Source: Neptuniibacter marinus
GTDB taxonomy: Bacteria > Pseudomonadota > Gammaproteobacteria > Pseudomonadales > Balneatricaceae
DNA: 51,358 nt
Reading direction: 5' to 3'
NCBI RefSeq assembly: GCF_001597725.1
Contig: NZ_LUTR01000024.1
Location: 1 to 51,358 of the forward strand
Shown here: positions 3,633-10,594 of the stretch, piece after piece
Layout: the number at the start of each line of letters is the position of its first letter
How positions within the stretch are numbered: the stretch's first letter is position 1
Program-made: the position numbers and the translations under genes
Notes under the pieces: generated by a model
Seen by the model: the letters and a program-made list of their open reading frames with translations, nothing else
The model's database searches: none
Told to the model about the DNA's origin: nothing

Positions 3633-4226
3633 ATGGCAAGGCCAGCAGAGTTCGACCGCACGGATGTATTAGAAAAAGCGATGGACGTGTTCTGGAGAAC
3701 CGGCTACAACGCTTCTTCAATTACAGATCTAGTCAAAGCAACGCAACTAAAACCCGGTTCACTTTATGGTGCATTTCAAAGTAAACGCGGATTGTTTTTG
3801 GAAGCAATCGACACTTATAGTAAACGTAGTGTTGAGCGTATCACTGCAGTGCTTAGCAAATCTGAATCCCCTCTACAAAATATAGAATCATTCTTTATTA
3901 TATTCTGTGAGGAGCTAGAAAAAGATCAGATAGGCAAAGGCTGCTTCATGATTAATACAATGCTAGAACTGGCTACCGAAGATGATGAGATTAGAGAACG
4001 TGTGAGCATCTATTTAGATCAAGTCGAGCAGAGCTTCTGCAACACGGTTAGTAAAGCGCAACAACTAGGTGAGATTGATCCACACAAAAGTGCCGCAGAT
4101 CTAGCGACCTATCTAATGACCAATATTTGGGGGTTGCGAGTATTAAGCAGCAAGCGCCCTAATCATAAAAAATATAAAGCGGTCATTAGTAATATTCTTT
4201 TAACCCTTACCTATTCACATCATTGA
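3633..4226 (+). CDS. TetR/AcrR family transcriptional regulator
   Basis: The N-terminus (MARPAEFDRTDVLEKAMDVF) followed by a helix-turn-helix around residues 25-50 (ITDLVKATQLKPGSLYGAF) is classic TetR. The C-terminal half is the helical ligand and dimer domain, with a GKGCFMINTMLELA segment typical of a common TetR_C subgroup. The start at 3633 is chosen because GGAGGG lies eight bases upstream; the longer frame from 3591 would overlap the divergent lipoprotein's leader. The gene is upstream of, and co-directional with, a fumarylacetoacetate-hydrolase-family gene whose promoter carries a 30-base palindrome, so that gene is a plausible target. The inducer is unknown. Confidence 0.9.
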   Translation: MARPAEFDRTDVLEKAMDVFWRTGYNASSITDLVKATQLKPGSLYGAFQSKRGLFLEAIDTYSKRSVERITAVLSKSESPLQNIESFFIIFCEELEKDQIGKGCFMINTMLELATEDDEIRERVSIYLDQVEQSFCNTVSKAQQLGEIDPHKSAADLATYLMTNIWGLRVLSSKRPNHKKYKAVISNILLTLTYSHH

Positions 4227-4248
4227 TTAAGGACAACCTCAGAACTTA

Positions 4249-4290
4249 TGTAGTTTGATTGAATAATTGATCAGACTACACGACCTTTTC
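4249..4290 (+). terminator. Possible terminator after the TetR gene
   Basis: Arms TGTAGTTTGAT (4249-4259) and ATCAGACTACA (4270-4280) form an 11-pair stem with one U-G wobble and a ten-base loop. The tail CGACCTTTTCC is only weakly T-rich, so an operator role cannot be excluded. Confidence 0.4.
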
Positions 4291-4369
4291 CAATGCCCCA
4301 CCCATCCAGCTTTTATTACCCCTATATCCACTCAGAAAACCCAGATACCCCATCACTGAAGAATATTTT

Positions 4370-4399
4370 TTAGTTACCTACCTTCTGTTAGATAACTAA
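4370..4399. promoter_or_regulatory. 30-base imperfect palindrome overlapping a promoter
   Basis: The left arm TTAGTTACCTACC and the right arm GTTAGATAACTAA match at 11 of 13 positions around a TTCT centre. A perfect TATAAT sits at 4416-4421, so the palindrome covers the -35 region of the promoter of the gene at 4463. This is the usual geometry for a TetR-type repressor site. Assignment to the adjacent regulator is inference. Confidence 0.5.
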
Positions 4400-4462
4400 A
4401 TTGCTCTGATACCCATATAATAAACCCTACAACTGAATAACTGTTCTCTTGGGGCTCATCCT

Positions 4463-5320
4463 ATGAAACTAGTCACTTTTAAGCACGATAACCGTGTTTC
4501 TGTAGGGATTCTCTATCAAGGAAAGATCATTCCTGCATGGTCAAACCCATTAATGCCTCAAGATATGTGTCATTTCCTATCCGGTGGGAAATCCCTACAA
4601 GAAAACCTACTCTCGTACGCAGGTAAAGCCGATATCCCCCAAGAAGAGGCAGAACTACTTGCACCCGTTCTTAATCCCCAAAAGTTTCTTGGTGTTGGGC
4701 TTAATTATGCTGACCACATTGCAGAAACAGGCTTAAAAACGCCTGAATTCCCCACTATTTTTAACAAACAGGCCAGTTGTATTATTGGTGACAGCGCGGC
4801 TATCCACCGCCCCTCAGTCTCAAATAAGCTTGATTACGAAGGCGAGCTAGCTTTCGTCATTGGGAAACGATGTCGGCATGTTCCTTACGAACAAGCTCAA
4901 CATGTTATTGCGGGCTATACCATTGTTAATGATATCTCAGTACGTGACTGGCAAATTAAATCCCCAACATGGACTTTAGGAAAATCCTTTGATACCCATG
5001 GTCCTATGGGGCCTTGGATAACAACCGATAATATAGACCCTCACGCATTAGAACTTAAAACATGGGTTAATGGAGAGTTACGGCAACACTCCAATACAAA
5101 AAACCTCATCTTTGATTGCTATGCCCTAGTTGAAACACTCTCGACAGTCTGCACTTTAATGCCTGGTGATGTTATCGCGACGGGCACATGCTCTGGTGTA
5201 GGAGTATCAATGAAACCACGAGGCTACTTAAAGCCAGGCGATACTGTCACTGTCGAAATTGAACATATTGGACGTTTATCAAATAACATCATTGCAGAGC
5301 CCACTACTCCGCTCTATTAA
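4463..5320 (+). CDS. Fumarylacetoacetate hydrolase family protein
   Basis: The 285-residue protein has the FAH fold: GVGLNYADH at about 77-85 (His85 is a likely catalytic residue) and metal ligands Glu126, Glu128 and Asp157 in DYEGELAF and VNDISVRDWQ. It ends with the GDVIATGTCSGVG and LKPGDTVTVEIEHIG segments of the C-terminal beta barrel. Members hydrolyse or decarboxylate 2-oxo or beta-diketo acids (acylpyruvases, fumarylpyruvate hydrolases, oxaloacetate decarboxylases, 2-keto-3-deoxy acid dehydratases). The sequence alone does not choose between these. No aromatic-degradation genes are adjacent. Control by the upstream TetR regulator is suggested by the operator-like palindrome. Confidence 0.9.
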   Translation: MKLVTFKHDNRVSVGILYQGKIIPAWSNPLMPQDMCHFLSGGKSLQENLLSYAGKADIPQEEAELLAPVLNPQKFLGVGLNYADHIAETGLKTPEFPTIFNKQASCIIGDSAAIHRPSVSNKLDYEGELAFVIGKRCRHVPYEQAQHVIAGYTIVNDISVRDWQIKSPTWTLGKSFDTHGPMGPWITTDNIDPHALELKTWVNGELRQHSNTKNLIFDCYALVETLSTVCTLMPGDVIATGTCSGVGVSMKPRGYLKPGDTVTVEIEHIGRLSNNIIAEPTTPLY

Positions 5321-5360
5321 AGCATCTAAACAACACTTTATCACAGCCACTATTTATAGG

Positions 5361-5378
5361 TGTCTCCATTTGGAAACC
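5361..5378 (+). promoter_or_regulatory. Degenerate second GlrR-like half site
   Basis: TGTCTCCATTTG (5361-5372) is a perfect inverted copy of CAAATGGAGACA (5433-5444) 60 bases downstream. With N10 spacing its right half reads AACC rather than GACA, so it would be a weak or half activator site. Confidence 0.35.
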
Positions 5379-5423
5379 TTCTAACTTATTGTTTTATATA
5401 AATAAGTATATTAACCACTCAAT

Positions 5424-5447
5424 TACTGTCTGCAAATGGAGACAGTA
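5424..5447 (+). promoter_or_regulatory. GlrR-type upstream activator site, TGTC-N10-GACA
   Basis: Perfect eight-base arms TACTGTCT and AGACAGTA surround GCAAATGG. The core TGTC (5427-5430), ten bases, GACA (5441-5444) equals the TGTC-N10-GACA motif I know for the enhancer-binding protein GlrR/QseF. A glrR gene lies 3 kb downstream. The site is about 95 bases upstream of a sigma54-like promoter, a normal enhancer distance. Confidence 0.6.
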
Positions 5448-5507
5448 TTGAAGAGATAAACATACTAAGTTTAAGCAGGCCTTTCCAAAAAAGCCAAAAA
5501 CACAATA

Positions 5508-5520
5508 TAACTAATTGTTT
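5508..5520 (-). promoter_or_regulatory. IHF-like binding site
   Basis: The minus strand reads AAACAATTAGTTA, matching WATCAA-N4-TTR at eight of nine specified bases. It lies between the activator site and the -24/-12 promoter, where IHF bending is expected in sigma54 systems. IHF motifs are loose, so this counts only with its neighbours. Confidence 0.4.
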
Positions 5521-5539
5521 TTAAATGCTTTTAAAAATA

Positions 5540-5555
5540 TGGCACAAGTATTGAT
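5540..5555 (+). promoter_or_regulatory. Sigma54 (RpoN) -24/-12 promoter of the EF-hand genes
   Basis: TGGCAC, five bases, TTGAT has the exact sigma54 spacing from the -24 GG to the -12 element. The -12 dinucleotide is GA rather than the usual GC. Transcription would start near 5566, about 45 bases before the EF-hand start codon. The activator and IHF-like sites upstream support the call. Confidence 0.55.
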
Positions 5556-5611
5556 ATATCTAGTTCGATTTTAAACTTTCGAACTGCCATATTTTATCTA
5601 GGAGATAAATC

Positions 5612-5902
5612 ATGAAAACAATTAATTGGGTATTTGCTTCACTAATCGCTACTTCTTCAACTGTTGCACTAGCAGAAGAAGCACCAACAACTGCGGTAGA
5701 AACTCAAACTGAAGTTACTACAAGTGAACAGCCTGCAGAGAAAAAAGTTTTTAACAAACTTGATGCAGACCAAGATGGAAAAATCAGCCAAGAAGAAGCA
5801 AAAAATTACCCTAAACTGGTTGAAGGTTTCGATAAAATCGATGCCGATAGCGATGGTTTTTTAAGCCCTGAAGAATTCACTCGTCCACACAAAAAATCAT
5901 AA
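5612..5902 (+). CDS. Secreted EF-hand Ca-binding protein 1
   Basis: The protein is 96 residues. Residues 1-21 are a signal peptide ending ALA, followed by a Thr/Glu-rich linker and a paired EF-hand. Both loops are canonical: DADQDGKISQEE (51-62) and DADSDGFLSPEE (77-88), with Asp at positions 1, 3 and 5, Gly at 6 and Glu at 12. It should bind two Ca ions in the periplasm or outside the cell, as a Ca buffer or sensor. An AGGAGA ribosome site precedes the ATG. The next gene is a tandem paralogue 33 bases downstream. Upstream are sigma54, IHF-like and GlrR-like sites, which link it to the two-component genes that follow. Confidence 0.88.
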   Translation: MKTINWVFASLIATSSTVALAEEAPTTAVETQTEVTTSEQPAEKKVFNKLDADQDGKISQEEAKNYPKLVEGFDKIDADSDGFLSPEEFTRPHKKS

Positions 5903-5935
5903 TCGGACAATCATAAGTTTTCTGGGAGAATCATT

Positions 5936-6280
5936 ATGAAAGTAACAACATGGGCACTTGCGTCTCTACTAGTTATTTCATCATCAGCAAGCATCGCTGA
6001 CACAGTAATTGCTGCAAAAATCCAATCGGATGATGCGCAGCCCGATGTGATGACTAATGAACAACCTAAAGCGCCTAGTATTTTTGAAAAGCTAGATGGA
6101 AACAAAGATGGCAAAGTAAGCCCACAAGAAGCGCAAGTATCCCCCGCTCTTGTAAAAGGTTTCGATAAAATCGATACCAATAAAGATGGCTTCCTAAGCC
6201 CTGACGAGTTTTCCCAACTTCAGGTTAATGCAACGCCAGCCCCTACTTTCATAGTAATGGCTTCTCTACAAACGTTGTAA
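5936..6280 (+). CDS. Secreted EF-hand Ca-binding protein 2 (tandem paralogue)
   Basis: The 114-residue protein is parallel to its upstream neighbour, with a signal peptide (about residues 1-21), a short linker and two EF loops: DGNKDGKVSPQE (54-65) and DTNKDGFLSPDE (80-91). The shared FDKID segment between the loops shows a tandem duplication. It differs by a 20-residue, rather hydrophobic C-terminal tail (from about residue 95) that the first copy lacks. It is probably co-transcribed with the first copy from the same sigma54-like promoter. The stop codon is 18 bases before a strong hairpin series, so the mRNA may carry a structured 3' end. Confidence 0.85.
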   Translation: MKVTTWALASLLVISSSASIADTVIAAKIQSDDAQPDVMTNEQPKAPSIFEKLDGNKDGKVSPQEAQVSPALVKGFDKIDTNKDGFLSPDEFSQLQVNATPAPTFIVMASLQTL

Positions 6281-6298
6281 ACGGGTTCACTAGTGTGT

Positions 6299-6457
6299 GG
6301 AGGGGTAGCTTAAACTGATTCCGAGACAGCCTCAGTTAGTTATCTCTCCTCCTTCTGGTAACGGTTGAGTAGAGCATCCATGTCCACAAACATAGCCGCC
6401 AGCTCTACTTAACAGGCTAGGAATCCTCCACGGGGTTCCTAGCCCCCCTAATTTTTT
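6299..6457 (+). ncRNA. Candidate structured small RNA or 3'UTR RNA upstream of glrK
   Basis: Three consecutive hairpins are seen. The first pairs 6299-6310 with 6338-6349 and 6313-6318 with 6332-6337: 18 pairs, including three G-U wobbles, with one two-base bulge. The second pairs AGTAGAGC (6368-6375) with GCTCTACT (6402-6409) around a 26-base loop. The third is GGCTAGGAA (6415-6423) with TTCCTAGCC (6436-6444) followed by CCCCCTAATTTTTT, an intrinsic terminator. In enterobacteria the sRNA gene glmY sits at this same place before glrK and is driven by GlrR and sigma54. I see no primary-sequence match to GlmY and no clear promoter of its own, so processing from the EF-hand transcript is possible. 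Confidence 0.45.
6415..6457 (+). terminator. Intrinsic terminator before glrK
   Basis: A nine-pair perfect stem (GGCTAGGAA/TTCCTAGCC), extendable by U-G and C-G pairs, is followed by a T run at 6452-6457. It ends the EF-hand/RNA transcription unit 100 bases before glrK. Confidence 0.8.
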
Positions 6458-6557
6458 CAAACCACCTCAATTAGTAAAAACAGATGGAAATACTATCCAA
6501 TTAAAGCTCTATTCATGGATAATAGACATACACTTGTTAAATAAAATACTCTATTAA

Positions 6558-7967
6558 ATGCCAAATCATAACCGGCGCGGTTGGCGCTTAAGTTCACTAA
6601 AGCAGTTAGTGTTACTTTCCTTCTTAGTAGTGGTCACACCTTTTGGTATCTTGATCTACTATGCAACAGATGCCCTTGTTGAACAATCAGCAGAGGGGCG
6701 CGTACTTGCTAAACAAGCACTAGAAGTCACTCGCCGTGGGCAACGCTTAGAAGGCCTAGCCGAAGACATTACTCGCTCTGCCCGTCAATACCAGATTCTC
6801 GCCAAGCCAGAAATAAAACAACGCTTAACTCAAAACCTGCTTGATTACCGAGAACAACTCTCGATCCACAGCTTCATACTGACCCAAGTTGAGCAGCTTA
6901 ACCAAATCAGTACACTCTTAGATAATATTGAACAATATCAGTCAGAAGACGCTAATAACCTACTCGGATTAACACGCGAGATAAATCAGCAGGTTGACCT
7001 GATTCTTGACCAGCGATTACAAGCGCTCAACTCAACCGCTCAACATACACAAACCCAGCTAAGTACACTTGCGATCATTTTATTGGTTATAGAGATGCTG
7101 CTGATCCTATTTTTTAGTTTTAGCATTATTCGCCCGGTTCGCCGCATTGCAGATAGAATACAAGCACTAGGTACAGGTGAGGAATATACTGGAGCAATGG
7201 TAGGAGGCCCTGACGAGCTGGTCGAATTAGAGCAACAGCTTGATTGGCTCACCGATCGCTTAGCCGAAGTAGAAAATGAGAAACAGCGCTTTTTACGCCA
7301 TATGTCCCATGAATTAAAAACGCCCTTAACCACTTTACGAGAAGGCTCCGACCTATTGGCAGATCAGATCACTGGGCCACTAAATACAAGCCAAATGGAA
7401 GTCACTCAATTACTACAAAGTAACTCAAGGCAGCTACAATCATTAATAGAACAGCTGTTAGACTACAGCCGTTTACATCAAAACGAATCTGTTAATTTTC
7501 ATCGCGTCAAACTACTTCCAGTCTTAACTGAAGCGATCGAGCCTTATAAATTATTACTTGAGCAAAAAAAGATACACCTTAGCCTTCCTAAGGAAGATCA
7601 TGAATGGGTCACCGACCGTGCTATGTTGGTAAGAATTATAAGCAACTTAGTCTCTAATGCTGCGCTATATGGGAGTAATGAAGGTGATCTCACGCTGAGT
7701 ATTAGCCAAACAAATGAACACTGTCTTATTAACGTAGAAAATGATGGCCCCACTATCCCTCTTAAAGATGTTCCTCTGCTATTTGAACCGTTTTATCAAG
7801 GCCAAAATAGGCGACAAGGACCAGTAAAAGGCTCAGGTATAGGTCTAAGTATTGTCCATGACGCAGCCGAGTCCTTAGGCGCAACGGTTAAATTAGCAAA
7901 GAATGAAAATCACCGCGTTGGTTTTAGCGTTTGCCTTCCCATTTCGGAGCACCCTATTAATGATTAG
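6558..7967 (+). CDS. glrK: Sensor histidine kinase GlrK/QseE-like
   Basis: The 469 residues match the usual length. Transmembrane helices lie at about 15-33 and 170-190, flanking a helical periplasmic sensor region. A HAMP domain follows (about 190-240), then HisKA with the phospho-acceptor His251 in MSHELKTPLTT, and a HATPase domain with the N box SNLVSNA and the G2 box GSGIGLSIV. It should autophosphorylate and transfer to GlrR, encoded two genes downstream. The gene overlaps the qseG lipoprotein gene by eight bases, and glrR then overlaps qseG by four, so the three form one operon. The order kinase-lipoprotein-sigma54 activator is diagnostic of glrK-qseG-glrR. The input signal is not known from sequence. 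Confidence 0.92.
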   Translation: MPNHNRRGWRLSSLKQLVLLSFLVVVTPFGILIYYATDALVEQSAEGRVLAKQALEVTRRGQRLEGLAEDITRSARQYQILAKPEIKQRLTQNLLDYREQLSIHSFILTQVEQLNQISTLLDNIEQYQSEDANNLLGLTREINQQVDLILDQRLQALNSTAQHTQTQLSTLAIILLVIEMLLILFFSFSIIRPVRRIADRIQALGTGEEYTGAMVGGPDELVELEQQLDWLTDRLAEVENEKQRFLRHMSHELKTPLTTLREGSDLLADQITGPLNTSQMEVTQLLQSNSRQLQSLIEQLLDYSRLHQNESVNFHRVKLLPVLTEAIEPYKLLLEQKKIHLSLPKEDHEWVTDRAMLVRIISNLVSNAALYGSNEGDLTLSISQTNEHCLINVENDGPTIPLKDVPLLFEPFYQGQNRRQGPVKGSGIGLSIVHDAAESLGATVKLAKNENHRVGFSVCLPISEHPIND

Positions 7968-8454
7968 ATACATTCCTCTCACTTTATGCCTATTCATCTT
8001 ACAAGGCTGCGAATTGAACGAAACAAAACCGAGTATTGAAGTAGAAACCATTTCAGAACAAAAAAGCTGCCGAATAGAGCCTGCTAATCTCGACCGTTTA
8101 CAAAAAATAGAAAAGCTCTTTTTAGAAAACCCTGAACGACGTAGCCGAATAATGCAAAATGCTATCCGAGATAAAGACCAGACGCTTCTTGCTTTGCTGC
8201 TCTCAACACCGCTATCCTCTAAAGAACAGCTCCAACAAGCAAAACGCTATTACGCCAAATTTGTACTTTATCCAGATAAAGCCTGCCCTGGCGATCGATA
8301 TTTCGACTTAAGAGATCAATTAACCTCTGCCCTACTGTGGATGAGAGCTGAGCAAGACAATCTATTACAAGAAAACAAAACATTGCAGATTAAAATAGAT
8401 GCCTTAACTCAGATAGAAACTGATTTAAGTAAAGACAAAGAGATTCAGGAATGA
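7960..8454 (+). CDS. qseG: QseG-like outer-membrane lipoprotein of the GlrKR operon
   Basis: The start at 7960 gives MIRYIPLTLCLF and a lipobox ending LQGC, a proper lipoprotein signal. The frame open from 7903 would extend it inside the kinase gene and is not preferred. The mature protein is short, helical and charged, with a C-terminal coiled coil (about residues 130-160 of 164). In enterobacteria QseG is an outer-membrane lipoprotein that interacts with the sensor kinase QseE/GlrK and stimulates it. The identity here rests mostly on gene order and the lipobox, since this family diverges fast. Confidence 0.75.
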   Translation: MIRYIPLTLCLFILQGCELNETKPSIEVETISEQKSCRIEPANLDRLQKIEKLFLENPERRSRIMQNAIRDKDQTLLALLLSTPLSSKEQLQQAKRYYAKFVLYPDKACPGDRYFDLRDQLTSALLWMRAEQDNLLQENKTLQIKIDALTQIETDLSKDKEIQE

Positions 8455-9776
8455 AACCTCATATCCTTTTAGTCGATGATGACGCCTCTTTGCTAAAGCT
8501 TCTATCAATGCGTTTAGAGGCCAGTGGTTACCAGATTAGTTGTGCCGAAAGTGCAGAAGCGGCCCTAGAGGTGTTAGACGATAAGATTGATCTTCTGGTT
8601 ACCGATCTACGAATGGAAGGTATGGATGGTATGGCACTGTTTAAACAAGTGCAGCGCCTTTATCCACAGCTCCCTGTTGTTATTATCACTGCCCATGGAT
8701 CTATTCCTGAGGCCGTCACCGCTACCCAACAAGGCGTATTTGGTTTTTTAACTAAACCGATTGATCGTGACCAACTGATGCAAAATATTGAAGCCGCCTT
8801 AGCAAGCATCAGTCGAAGCGAAGGGGAATGGCGTAATAATATTATCAGCCGTAGCCATACTATGGAGCAACTACTCCAAGAAGCAGAGCAGATAGCCGCT
8901 TCCGATGTCAGTGTACTGATAACAGGAGCGAGCGGTAGCGGTAAAGAGCTATTGGCCAATGCCATTCATAAAGCGAGTCCACGTAGTAAAAAACCCTTTA
9001 TTGCCATTAACTGTGGCGCACTACCAGAGCAACTACTGGAATCAGAACTCTTTGGGCACAGCAAAGGAGCCTTCACTGGCGCAGTTAATAAACACGAAGG
9101 GCTATTTCAAGCTGCAAATGGAGGCACCTTATTCTTAGATGAAATCGGTGATATGCCAACGCCACTTCAGGTAAAACTATTAAGGGTGTTGCAGGAACGT
9201 CAAATCCGTCCCGTTGGGAGCACCGAAACCATTGCCGTGGATGTCCGTGTTATTTCAGCGACGCATCGAGATCTTGAGCAAGCGATGCAAGATAATAGTT
9301 TTAGGGAAGATCTTTTCTACCGCCTAAACGTAATCAATCTGCACTTGCCTCCCTTAAAGGACCGACCTGAAGATATTCTTCCTCTCGCGCGCTATTTTGT
9401 TGAACAAGCAGCTCTAAGGCACAACCCAAAAGTCAAAAACATCTCAAGTGCAGCCCTACAAGTACTTGCTCAATCCTCATGGCCCGGTAATGTTCGCCAG
9501 CTCGAAAATATTATTGAGAAAGTCACGGCATTAAGCACAACCCCAATCATTTCTGATACAGCTATCCACCGAGCATTAGCTAATCAAGAACAGGTCATTG
9601 CTAACTTTAATGATGCTAGGGCTGAGTTTGAAAAGAGATATCTCTGCAAAGTACTGCAGATAACTGAAGGTAATGTTACCCAAGCTGCGAAAATCGCCGG
9701 ACGCAACCGAACCGATTTTTACAAATTACTGAAAAAACATGCACTGGAAGCTGCTGATTACAAAAATGCGGAGTAA
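8451..9776 (+). CDS. glrR: Sigma54-dependent response regulator GlrR/QseF-like
   Basis: The 441 residues hold three domains. The receiver domain has phospho-acceptor Asp52 (LLVTDLRM) and Lys in FLTKPID. The AAA+ domain has Walker A TGASGSGKE, a GAFTGA sigma54-contact loop, Walker B GGTLFLDEIGD and an arginine-finger region. A Fis-type helix-turn-helix is at the C-terminus (GNVTQAAKIAGRNRTDFYKLL). It activates RpoN promoters after phosphorylation by GlrK. Its ATG overlaps the stop of the lipoprotein gene. A likely local target is the EF-hand promoter, which carries TGTC-N10-GACA upstream of a -24/-12 element. Confidence 0.94.
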   Translation: MKPHILLVDDDASLLKLLSMRLEASGYQISCAESAEAALEVLDDKIDLLVTDLRMEGMDGMALFKQVQRLYPQLPVVIITAHGSIPEAVTATQQGVFGFLTKPIDRDQLMQNIEAALASISRSEGEWRNNIISRSHTMEQLLQEAEQIAASDVSVLITGASGSGKELLANAIHKASPRSKKPFIAINCGALPEQLLESELFGHSKGAFTGAVNKHEGLFQAANGGTLFLDEIGDMPTPLQVKLLRVLQERQIRPVGSTETIAVDVRVISATHRDLEQAMQDNSFREDLFYRLNVINLHLPPLKDRPEDILPLARYFVEQAALRHNPKVKNISSAALQVLAQSSWPGNVRQLENIIEKVTALSTTPIISDTAIHRALANQEQVIANFNDARAEFEKRYLCKVLQITEGNVTQAAKIAGRNRTDFYKLLKKHALEAADYKNAE

Positions 9777-9799
9777 TCCATTACATTAATCCAACGCGA

Positions 9800-10594
9800 T
9801 TACTGATAATCATCCGGTAGTTTAATACCCATGGTATTTGCATCCTCTTGTGCAAGCGCCTTAAAACGCTCTCGTACTTTAGAACCTTTAGGTTTAGTCA
9901 GATAAAATAGCCATTTACTCGCAATTTCAGGTTTTAGCTGATGCTCCTCTCCCCAAGATTGGATAAACGTAAAGAGTGAGTCATCGCTTTTATCAGGCAA
10001 TGCGACAGGAACGGGGTTATCCAACTGCTCCCCTGCTCTTACCCGACGACAAAGAACCTCGTAGTTATATCGAAAATCAGGATATACATCCGCTGCATCT
10101 TCTGTACGTAGACGGAACCATCCCGTCGCTTTGCCCGCATGGTAAATGGCAGGGTGAGTCCACTGATGATGGGAAGCGCTGTCAGAAAAATTACACGCTT
10201 CTTCATAAGCATGTTTAGCCATGGGAAGGCCATAGTCTCCCGTCAAGCTTCTTAAAACTTTAATGAATTCAGAAATAGTCGGCATCCATGCACTATTTTC
10301 TTTACAGTAATCAATCGCAGCCACCAGCTCATTTTCAGTATAACCATCTAAGCTAAGTGCCCACTCTCGTTTTGCTATACGGATCTCATCTTGAGTTTCA
10401 AAACAGCTTTTAAACTTATGCCCATAGATCGCCATGAATCGGGCAAAGATCATATTTACAAAAGTTTTAACTTCAACACTCAGTTCGCGATTTTCCTGCT
10501 GTGTTTGATCATCACCAGTCTGTGTCTTTGATGTCCATGACTGCTGCGGTAACCCGTTTTCGCTTCTCTCGAGTATCTCGGCGGGGGTCTTCAT
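9800..10594 (-). CDS. Phage lambda P-like replication (helicase-loader-type) protein
   Basis: After a 35-residue polar leader, residues about 44-115 contain the segment typical of phage replication protein P: FVNMIFARF, then IAKREWALSL, then ELVAAIDYCKE and MPTISEFIKVLR. A second conserved block around 135-190 (WTHPAIYHAG, WFRLR) follows. Lambda P captures the host DnaB helicase and delivers it to an origin. Residues 200-264 are a divergent tail. The gene overlaps the upstream DnaT-like gene by 83 bases in another frame, which implies translational coupling. No other phage genes are nearby, so it looks like a domesticated chromosomal module. Confidence 0.78.
   Translation of the reverse strand: MKTPAEILERSENGLPQQSWTSKTQTGDDQTQQENRELSVEVKTFVNMIFARFMAIYGHKFKSCFETQDEIRIAKREWALSLDGYTENELVAAIDYCKENSAWMPTISEFIKVLRSLTGDYGLPMAKHAYEEACNFSDSASHHQWTHPAIYHAGKATGWFRLRTEDAADVYPDFRYNYEVLCRRVRAGEQLDNPVPVALPDKSDDSLFTFIQSWGEEHQLKPEIASKWLFYLTKPKGSKVRERFKALAQEDANTMGIKLPDDYQ

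Follow-up and report, generated by a model that had tools for sequence, protein, structure and literature searches.

What does the GlrKR system control in a bacterium where the place in front of glrK is taken by genes for EF-hand proteins, and not by glmY? In E. coli GlrKR, or QseEF, is known for the control of glmY and rpoE (PMC6075780). Its reported ligands are adrenaline, sulfate, and phosphate, and QseG is reported to bind QseE and to activate it directly (PMC12691602). The question is raised by a contig of Neptuniibacter marinus (NZ_LUTR01000024.1, positions 1 to 51,358), and the whole of this stretch of 51,358 nucleotides is here called the window. It carries two EF-hand genes between a set of promoter-like elements and the glrK-qseG-glrR genes.

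Promoter elements and genes of the locus

The two EF-hand genes encode proteins of 96 aa (5612-5902) and 114 aa (5936-6280). Both are on the + strand, both products are over the Pfam cut-off (PF13202, 48.8 and 48.9 bits, respectively), and by eye both have an N-terminus that resembles a signal peptide. Upstream of them a TGTC-N10-GACA word (TGTCTGCAAATGGAGACA, 5427-5444, + strand) is enclosed in a perfect palindrome with 8-base arms (5424-5447, + strand; arms 5424-5431 and 5440-5447), and this word is the predicted proximal UAS of GlrR. The first-pass annotation had taken it to be the GlrR motif of enterobacterial glmY promoters, in agreement with the three exact copies that precede glmY in E. 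coli K-12 (at -230, -197, and -134, i.e., 33 and 63 bp apart) and with the citation of TGTCN10GACA as the QseF consensus in a study of Proteus (PMC8745638). A sigma54 -24/-12 element, TGGCAC-N5-TTGAT (TGGCACAAGTATTGAT, 5540-5555, + strand), lies with its TGGCAC 113 bp from the proximal UAS and has a predicted start near 5566. Its spacer is N5 and its -12 half reads TTGAT, not TTGCW; rpoN is present in the genome, and a generic sigma70 scan found nothing over the element. Two IHF-like sites, recognised by their match to the consensus, are found on the - strand as direct repeats, one between the proximal UAS and the promoter (TAACTAATTGTTT, 5508-5520) and the other between the two UAS (TAACTTATTGTTT, 5382-5394). 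The palindrome, the IHF-like site, and the sigma54 element in front of two EF-hand genes had all been named by the first-pass annotation and are present as it described them.

It had also pointed to a 12-base inverted copy of half of the site. An inverted likeness is indeed found there, extending over 17 nt with 88% match to the proximal UAS. As the site is palindromic and as a second UAS, exact or with one mismatch, recurs at 65-67 bp in many relatives, the stretch (TGTCTCCATTTGGAAACC, 5361-5378, + strand) is more plausibly a distal UAS in degenerate form, with two mismatches and 66 bp from the proximal one. The region 5' of glrK is bounded on its far side by a fumarylacetoacetate-hydrolase gene, and its elements follow each other, in the order of the glmY promoter, as distal UAS, IHF-like site, proximal UAS, IHF-like site, and sigma54 element, with the two EF-hand genes behind them. 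The bare TGTC-N10-GACA motif is not over-represented in the 3.45 Mb genome (17 places against 51 for the reversed control) and is common by chance. TGGCAC-N5-TTGAT occurs six times against none for its reversed control, and among the 15 genomic UAS places with DNA to read (of 17) only that of the window is followed by a sigma54-like element at a distance of 40-260 bp. The combination of UAS and sigma54 element exceeds chance, and the deciding evidence is comparative.

The sensor kinase gene glrK (qseE; 6558-7967, + strand) encodes a product that is 32% identical to E. coli GlrK in an alignment of 464 columns and that matches the GlrK of G066 with a rounded identity of 100%. The lipoprotein gene behind it (7903-8454, probable start 7948, + strand) is called qseG-like from its position and from an LQGC lipobox seen by eye; its product is without a Pfam or NCBIfam match and gave a weak BLAST match to E. 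coli QseG (E 0.004 in a single comparison). The sigma54 activator gene glrR (qseF; 8451-9776, + strand) encodes a protein with 60% identity to E. coli GlrR. It scores 682 bits against NCBIfam NF011695, below the cut-off of 763 although this is still its best NCBIfam family, and it is called an orthologue on the basis of its similarity to E. coli GlrR and of gene order, not of that cut-off. The C-terminal helix is nearly identical in the two proteins (RNRTDFYKLL in the window, RNRTEFYKLL in E. coli), and we take this segment to be the recognition helix. The first-pass annotation had the operon following directly behind the EF-hand genes. The genes do follow, but a gap of 277 bp separates EF-hand gene 2 from glrK and holds a structured RNA with a terminator-like hairpin (see below). 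A GATAAT box at 6518-6523 (+ strand) is a candidate sigma70 -10 element for glrK; such a box is found at most 110 bp from glrK in 28 of 67 family loci against 67 of 1340 shuffles.

Conservation in the family

GlrK was found in 71 of the 116 genomes of the family, and 67 of these 71 loci were examined (G065 was left out as its contig ends there, and G043, G056, and G082 were not included). An EF-hand ORF lies upstream of glrK in 50 of the 67 when a loose expression is used and in 45 with a strict two-loop expression; by the loose expression it is absent in 17. Within 350 bp upstream of the EF-hand gene, 22 of the 50 loci have the exact UAS (three control words, 0/50 each), and 48 have it with no more than one mismatch (control word, 6/50). 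These counts come from related genomes, of which G000 and G066 are near-identical, and are not independent trials. In glrK and the DNA downstream of it, 164,681 bases in all, the exact UAS occurs at 10 places.

In the Neptuniibacter group the geometry is nearly fixed. The distance from the start of the UAS to TGG is 112-114 bp in all 10 genomes examined, one of which (L016) has a mismatch in the UAS and another (L014) reads TGGTAC, and each of the 10 genus loci read has one or two EF-hand ORFs at this place. Of the 50 relatives, 33 show an IHF-like word in the interval from UAS to promoter, compared to 53 of 1000 shuffles; this count flatters the site, since the form of the word was fixed after the window had been seen. 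Across the family, EF-hand genes are again preceded by UAS, IHF-like site, and -24/-12 element with this spacing. Conservation of the UAS pair and of the -24/-12 element in relatives had been set beforehand as the test by which the proposal could fall, and both were found conserved. In three loci (L023, L024, and L027) an extra exact TGTC-N10-GACA lies between the EF-hand gene and glrK, at -64 to -74, and no sigma54 element was found close downstream of it.

A structured RNA between the EF-hand genes and glrK

Directly 3' of EF-hand gene 2, at the place that glmY occupies in E. coli, fold and covariation reveal a conserved structure of three hairpins (6281-6448, + strand), a candidate small RNA that was missed in the first-pass annotation. 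The apical part of hairpin 1 (CUGAUUCCGAGACAGCCUCAG, 6315-6335, + strand) carries a loop, UUCCGAGACAGC, that is identical in nine of nine genus copies while the stems vary. Hairpin 2 (6364-6413, + strand) has an internal loop, CAUCC(A/U)UGUCCACA...UAGCCGCC, that is kept in eight of the nine and altered in L016. Hairpin 3 with its T-run (6415-6457, + strand) resembles an intrinsic terminator, and 8 of its 12 pairs are changed on both sides. The fold has a z of -5.2 in the window and of -3.0 to -6.3 in the nine genus copies, with at most one of 60 shuffles as stable. In the model alignment, which was fitted to the structure and so leans toward pairing, 91.4% of pair cells are standard and 19 of 42 pairs are changed on both sides. 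None of 500 shuffles reached this number of changes, and slid controls were only 29-47% paired. The corresponding count by RNAalifold on a MAFFT alignment was 20 of 42.

A covariance model of the RNA matches 9 of the 11 genus genomes, which is placement and not independent discovery, as all nine are in the training set of the model. The model misses G063, whose element is diverged and shorter and retains CCGAGACA, and G065, where the contig ends near glrK. Four of the 13 matching genomes lie outside the genus and match weakly; in one of them (G005) the match runs from the space between two long ORFs into the beginning of the downstream one. A 21-mer pattern of the hairpin-1 apex gave 10 records in about 85,000 species genomes, seven of them Neptuniibacter. 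The other three (Pseudomonas, Nocardia, and a Bacillota MAG) are likely chance, the model matching them only over the pattern. As far as the model goes, the RNA is limited to a single genus.

Throughout the genus no more than about 20 nt separate the start of the RNA from the EF-hand stop codon, and no sigma70-like promoter was seen just upstream of the RNA; for these two reasons it is read as the putative tail of the sigma54 transcript. The interval from the RNA to glrK, about 100 nt long, is less conserved and holds the GATAAT box. A location upstream of glrK and a terminator-like hairpin at the end would equally suit a cis-acting leader of glrK, an attenuator or riboswitch, in place of a trans-acting small RNA. 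We regard this as rather unlikely, as the RNA adjoins the EF-hand stop codon and is set apart from glrK by the less conserved DNA and its GATAAT box, and as no conserved antiterminator pairing was seen by eye. To just the same extent we doubt that the RNA does no more than stabilise and terminate the EF-hand mRNA at its 3' end. Its position and terminator would fit such a role, and the sister genus (L017-L021) has a different structured RNA between the EF-hand gene and glrK in five of five loci (z -3.8 to -6.5), as if structure alone counted, but a hairpin-1 loop that stays invariant on varying stems suits recognition better than mere stability. It is probable that the predicted RNA is made and functional, and the chances that it acts in trans are about even. 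The complement of the hairpin-1 loop with at most three mismatches has 40 places in the N. marinus genome, the RNA itself included, against 55 for the reversed control, and gives no target signal.

The RNAs of the sister genus have C-rich loops, CCCUCCC and UACCCUACC (CCCUCCC and UACCC), on stems that look compensated by eye, and these loops resemble those of anti-Shine-Dalgarno small RNAs. In another genome of the same order (L200 in G356), the stretch about 100-740 bp upstream of glrK has two exact GlrR sites, followed by TGGCACGACTTTGGCT (by eye) and by apparently non-coding, strongly folded DNA (400 nt, z -4.0) whose last element ahead of glrK is a terminator-like hairpin. The folded DNA is another RNA candidate at the place of glmY.

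Comparison with the glmY locus

The glmY locus of Enterobacteriaceae has in common with the window the TGTC-N10-GACA sites, a structured RNA with a terminator before glrK, and glrK-qseG-glrR behind it. The proximal UAS precedes TGGCAC by about 107 bp in E. coli glmY (measured by eye) compared to 113 bp in the window. The loci differ in their first products, which are EF-hand proteins in the window, and in that E. coli glmY is described as having overlapping promoters, whereas the sigma70 scan was empty over the sigma54 element here. The RNA is like GlmY and GlmZ in place, size, and terminator, but it has no Rfam match to either (RF00128 for GlmY). A search of 4200-10000 gave no Rfam family, and three sub-threshold matches of the RNA alone are taken as chance. 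Among 20 loci searched at gathering level the only match was the control at E. coli glmY (146 bits), and the covariance model of the RNA had no match at that locus. The RNA stands at the glmY place but is not GlmY by any of these tests.

Both rapZ and glmS are present in nine of nine genomes that carry the RNA. Pairing of the RNA with the glmS leader, a trait of GlmZ only, is not supported: in a crude duplex test that leaves accessibility aside, the pairing surpassed 98 or more of 100 shuffles in two of nine genomes. A second glmS paralogue, found in G067 (L230) and G059 (L231), has an upstream sigma54 element (TGGCACGTTAGCTGCA at -63 and TGGCACAGTAACTGCA at -62, respectively) and a shared CGCCTC(T/G)CAAAATGAGAAA box; no exact GlrR site was found in the 1500 bp upstream of it in either genome.

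EF-hand genes as predicted targets across the class

GlrK was found at 1e-60 in 80 of 370 genomes drawn from the class, that of N. marinus included. Outside that genome 79 glrK places were read (G447 was left out), and E. coli was added as the 80th locus. An EF-hand pair lies within 1500 bp upstream of glrK in 8 of the 79 (on the opposite strand in four) and is absent there in 71. Nine other loci have an EF-hand pair, on either strand, 2.8-4.7 kb after the glrK start, i.e., around or beyond the end of glrR, a stretch in which 51 of the 79 loci have at least 1500 bp of DNA.

The genomes were also scanned, blind to genes, for an exact UAS followed at 68-98 bp by TGGCAY-N5-YTGM. The scan gave 36 places in 32 of the 370 genomes compared to 8 for the reversed pattern. 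An EF-hand ORF starts within 330 bp of 8 of the 30 places with DNA, six of these ORFs being over the Pfam cut-off (the window included) and two, L261 and L271, below it; L262 and L268, each with one EF-loop-like match in what is apparently another protein family, were left out of this count. Eight of the 36 places are within 6 kb of glrK. UAS-sigma54 pairs also precede genes for other families, among them PEP-CTERM-like ones. As some of these pairs lie in genomes without a GlrK match, it is probable that other activators use the palindrome too. One such place (L251, 1077-1445) has a GlrR-like UAS and a sigma54 element before a gene for a secreted-looking protein with HKD/GDHKDGKM repeats, possibly metal-binding, that has no Pfam match. 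In L262, L265, and L268 the pair precedes the same protein family (KGKANP..VTLK..TVCEG.FRN), perhaps OsmC-like, which suggests a related regulon.

These loci bear on whether the promoter belongs to the EF-hand genes at all. It might instead serve glrKR itself by autoregulation, with the EF-hand genes as passengers between promoter and glrK. In line with this, one genus of the family lacks the EF-hand gene, and four of its eight loci (L048, L049, L051, and L053) have a sigma54-like element 120-125 bp before glrK, with a one-mismatch UAS in L049 and L053; in Proteus glmY-qseE-qseG-qseF is described as a single operon (PMC8745638). The four loci whose EF-hand gene is divergent speak differently. 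In three of them the sigma54 element points toward the EF-hand gene, with two exact UAS in L151, a one-mismatch UAS in L147, and none in L198, while L179 has a one-mismatch UAS and no sigma54 element was found; an element facing glrK was seen in 0 of the 4. As the promoter follows the EF-hand gene in divergent loci, that gene appears to be the target and not a passenger. Promoter and EF-hand gene are also found together away from any glrK match (L260 and L269) or beyond glrR (L261 and L271), and in the window the terminator-like hairpin and the GATAAT box separate the EF-hand genes from glrK. Such autoregulation, with the EF-hand genes as passengers, is improbable. Control by another activator of the NtrC family with a similar palindrome, as the pairs before non-EF-hand genes and in genomes without a GlrK match might suggest, is more improbable still, given that 8 of the 36 gene-blind places lie within 6 kb of glrK and that the motif is the same as, and the geometry similar to, that of E. 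coli glmY.

Activation of the EF-hand genes by GlrR and sigma54 is, on this comparative evidence, very likely. Control of EF-hand, putatively calcium-binding proteins by GlrKR, as the first-pass annotation had proposed, is supported by the conservation in the family and in other families of the class. The target had been put forward as one not known to be described, and a literature search that covered few subscription papers found EF-hand proteins linked to neither QseF nor GlrR. Among publications that bring EF-hand together with RpoN, two-component systems, and the periplasm, none appeared to be on GlrR; work on QseE with calcium-binding concerned E. coli O157 genomes, and work on Neptuniibacter with small RNA an oceanic sulfide plume. 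The periplasmic CaBP of Caulobacter, which goes with sigV, is likewise a secreted EF-hand protein of small size with a link to a regulator, but the sigma factor is another one and GlrKR does not occur in the part of the system described in the available text (PMC13171946).

Proposed mechanism and biological meaning

We consider it likely, if slightly less so than activation of the EF-hand genes taken by itself, that the whole arrangement is a GlrR-activated sigma54 promoter of the glmY type that drives the EF-hand genes and the RNA. GlrK would phosphorylate GlrR, probably with the help of the QseG-like lipoprotein, and phosphorylated GlrR would bind both palindromic UAS, which are spaced by about 66 bp. 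The DNA would be bent by IHF, and sigma54 polymerase at 5540-5555 would transcribe the genes of two secreted, probably periplasmic, EF-hand proteins. The same transcript would carry the three-hairpin RNA of about 170 nt with the terminator at its end, and this RNA would most likely be a small RNA that is released from the EF-hand transcript, or ends it, and acts through its invariant loops. The glrK-qseG-glrR genes would probably be expressed from a sigma70 promoter of their own together with some read-through, and such read-through would let activation feed back.

One may speculate that calcium is a signal for GlrKR. A broader view, which we hold only tentatively and with more doubt than belief, is that GlrKR is at root an envelope system linked to calcium or other cations. 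Its old and widespread regulon would be secreted EF-hand proteins that report to the kinase, and glmY would be one of several cargoes. The Neptuniibacter RNA would then have evolved independently as a partner and might, like GlmY, be a client of RapZ. The link between GlrR and EF-hand proteins recurs in several families of the class and leads to a simple, testable hypothesis, namely that the system handles envelope calcium. The candidate RNA may represent a second small RNA family at the place of glmY, and a sensor system of uncertain purpose would gain a concrete link to calcium.
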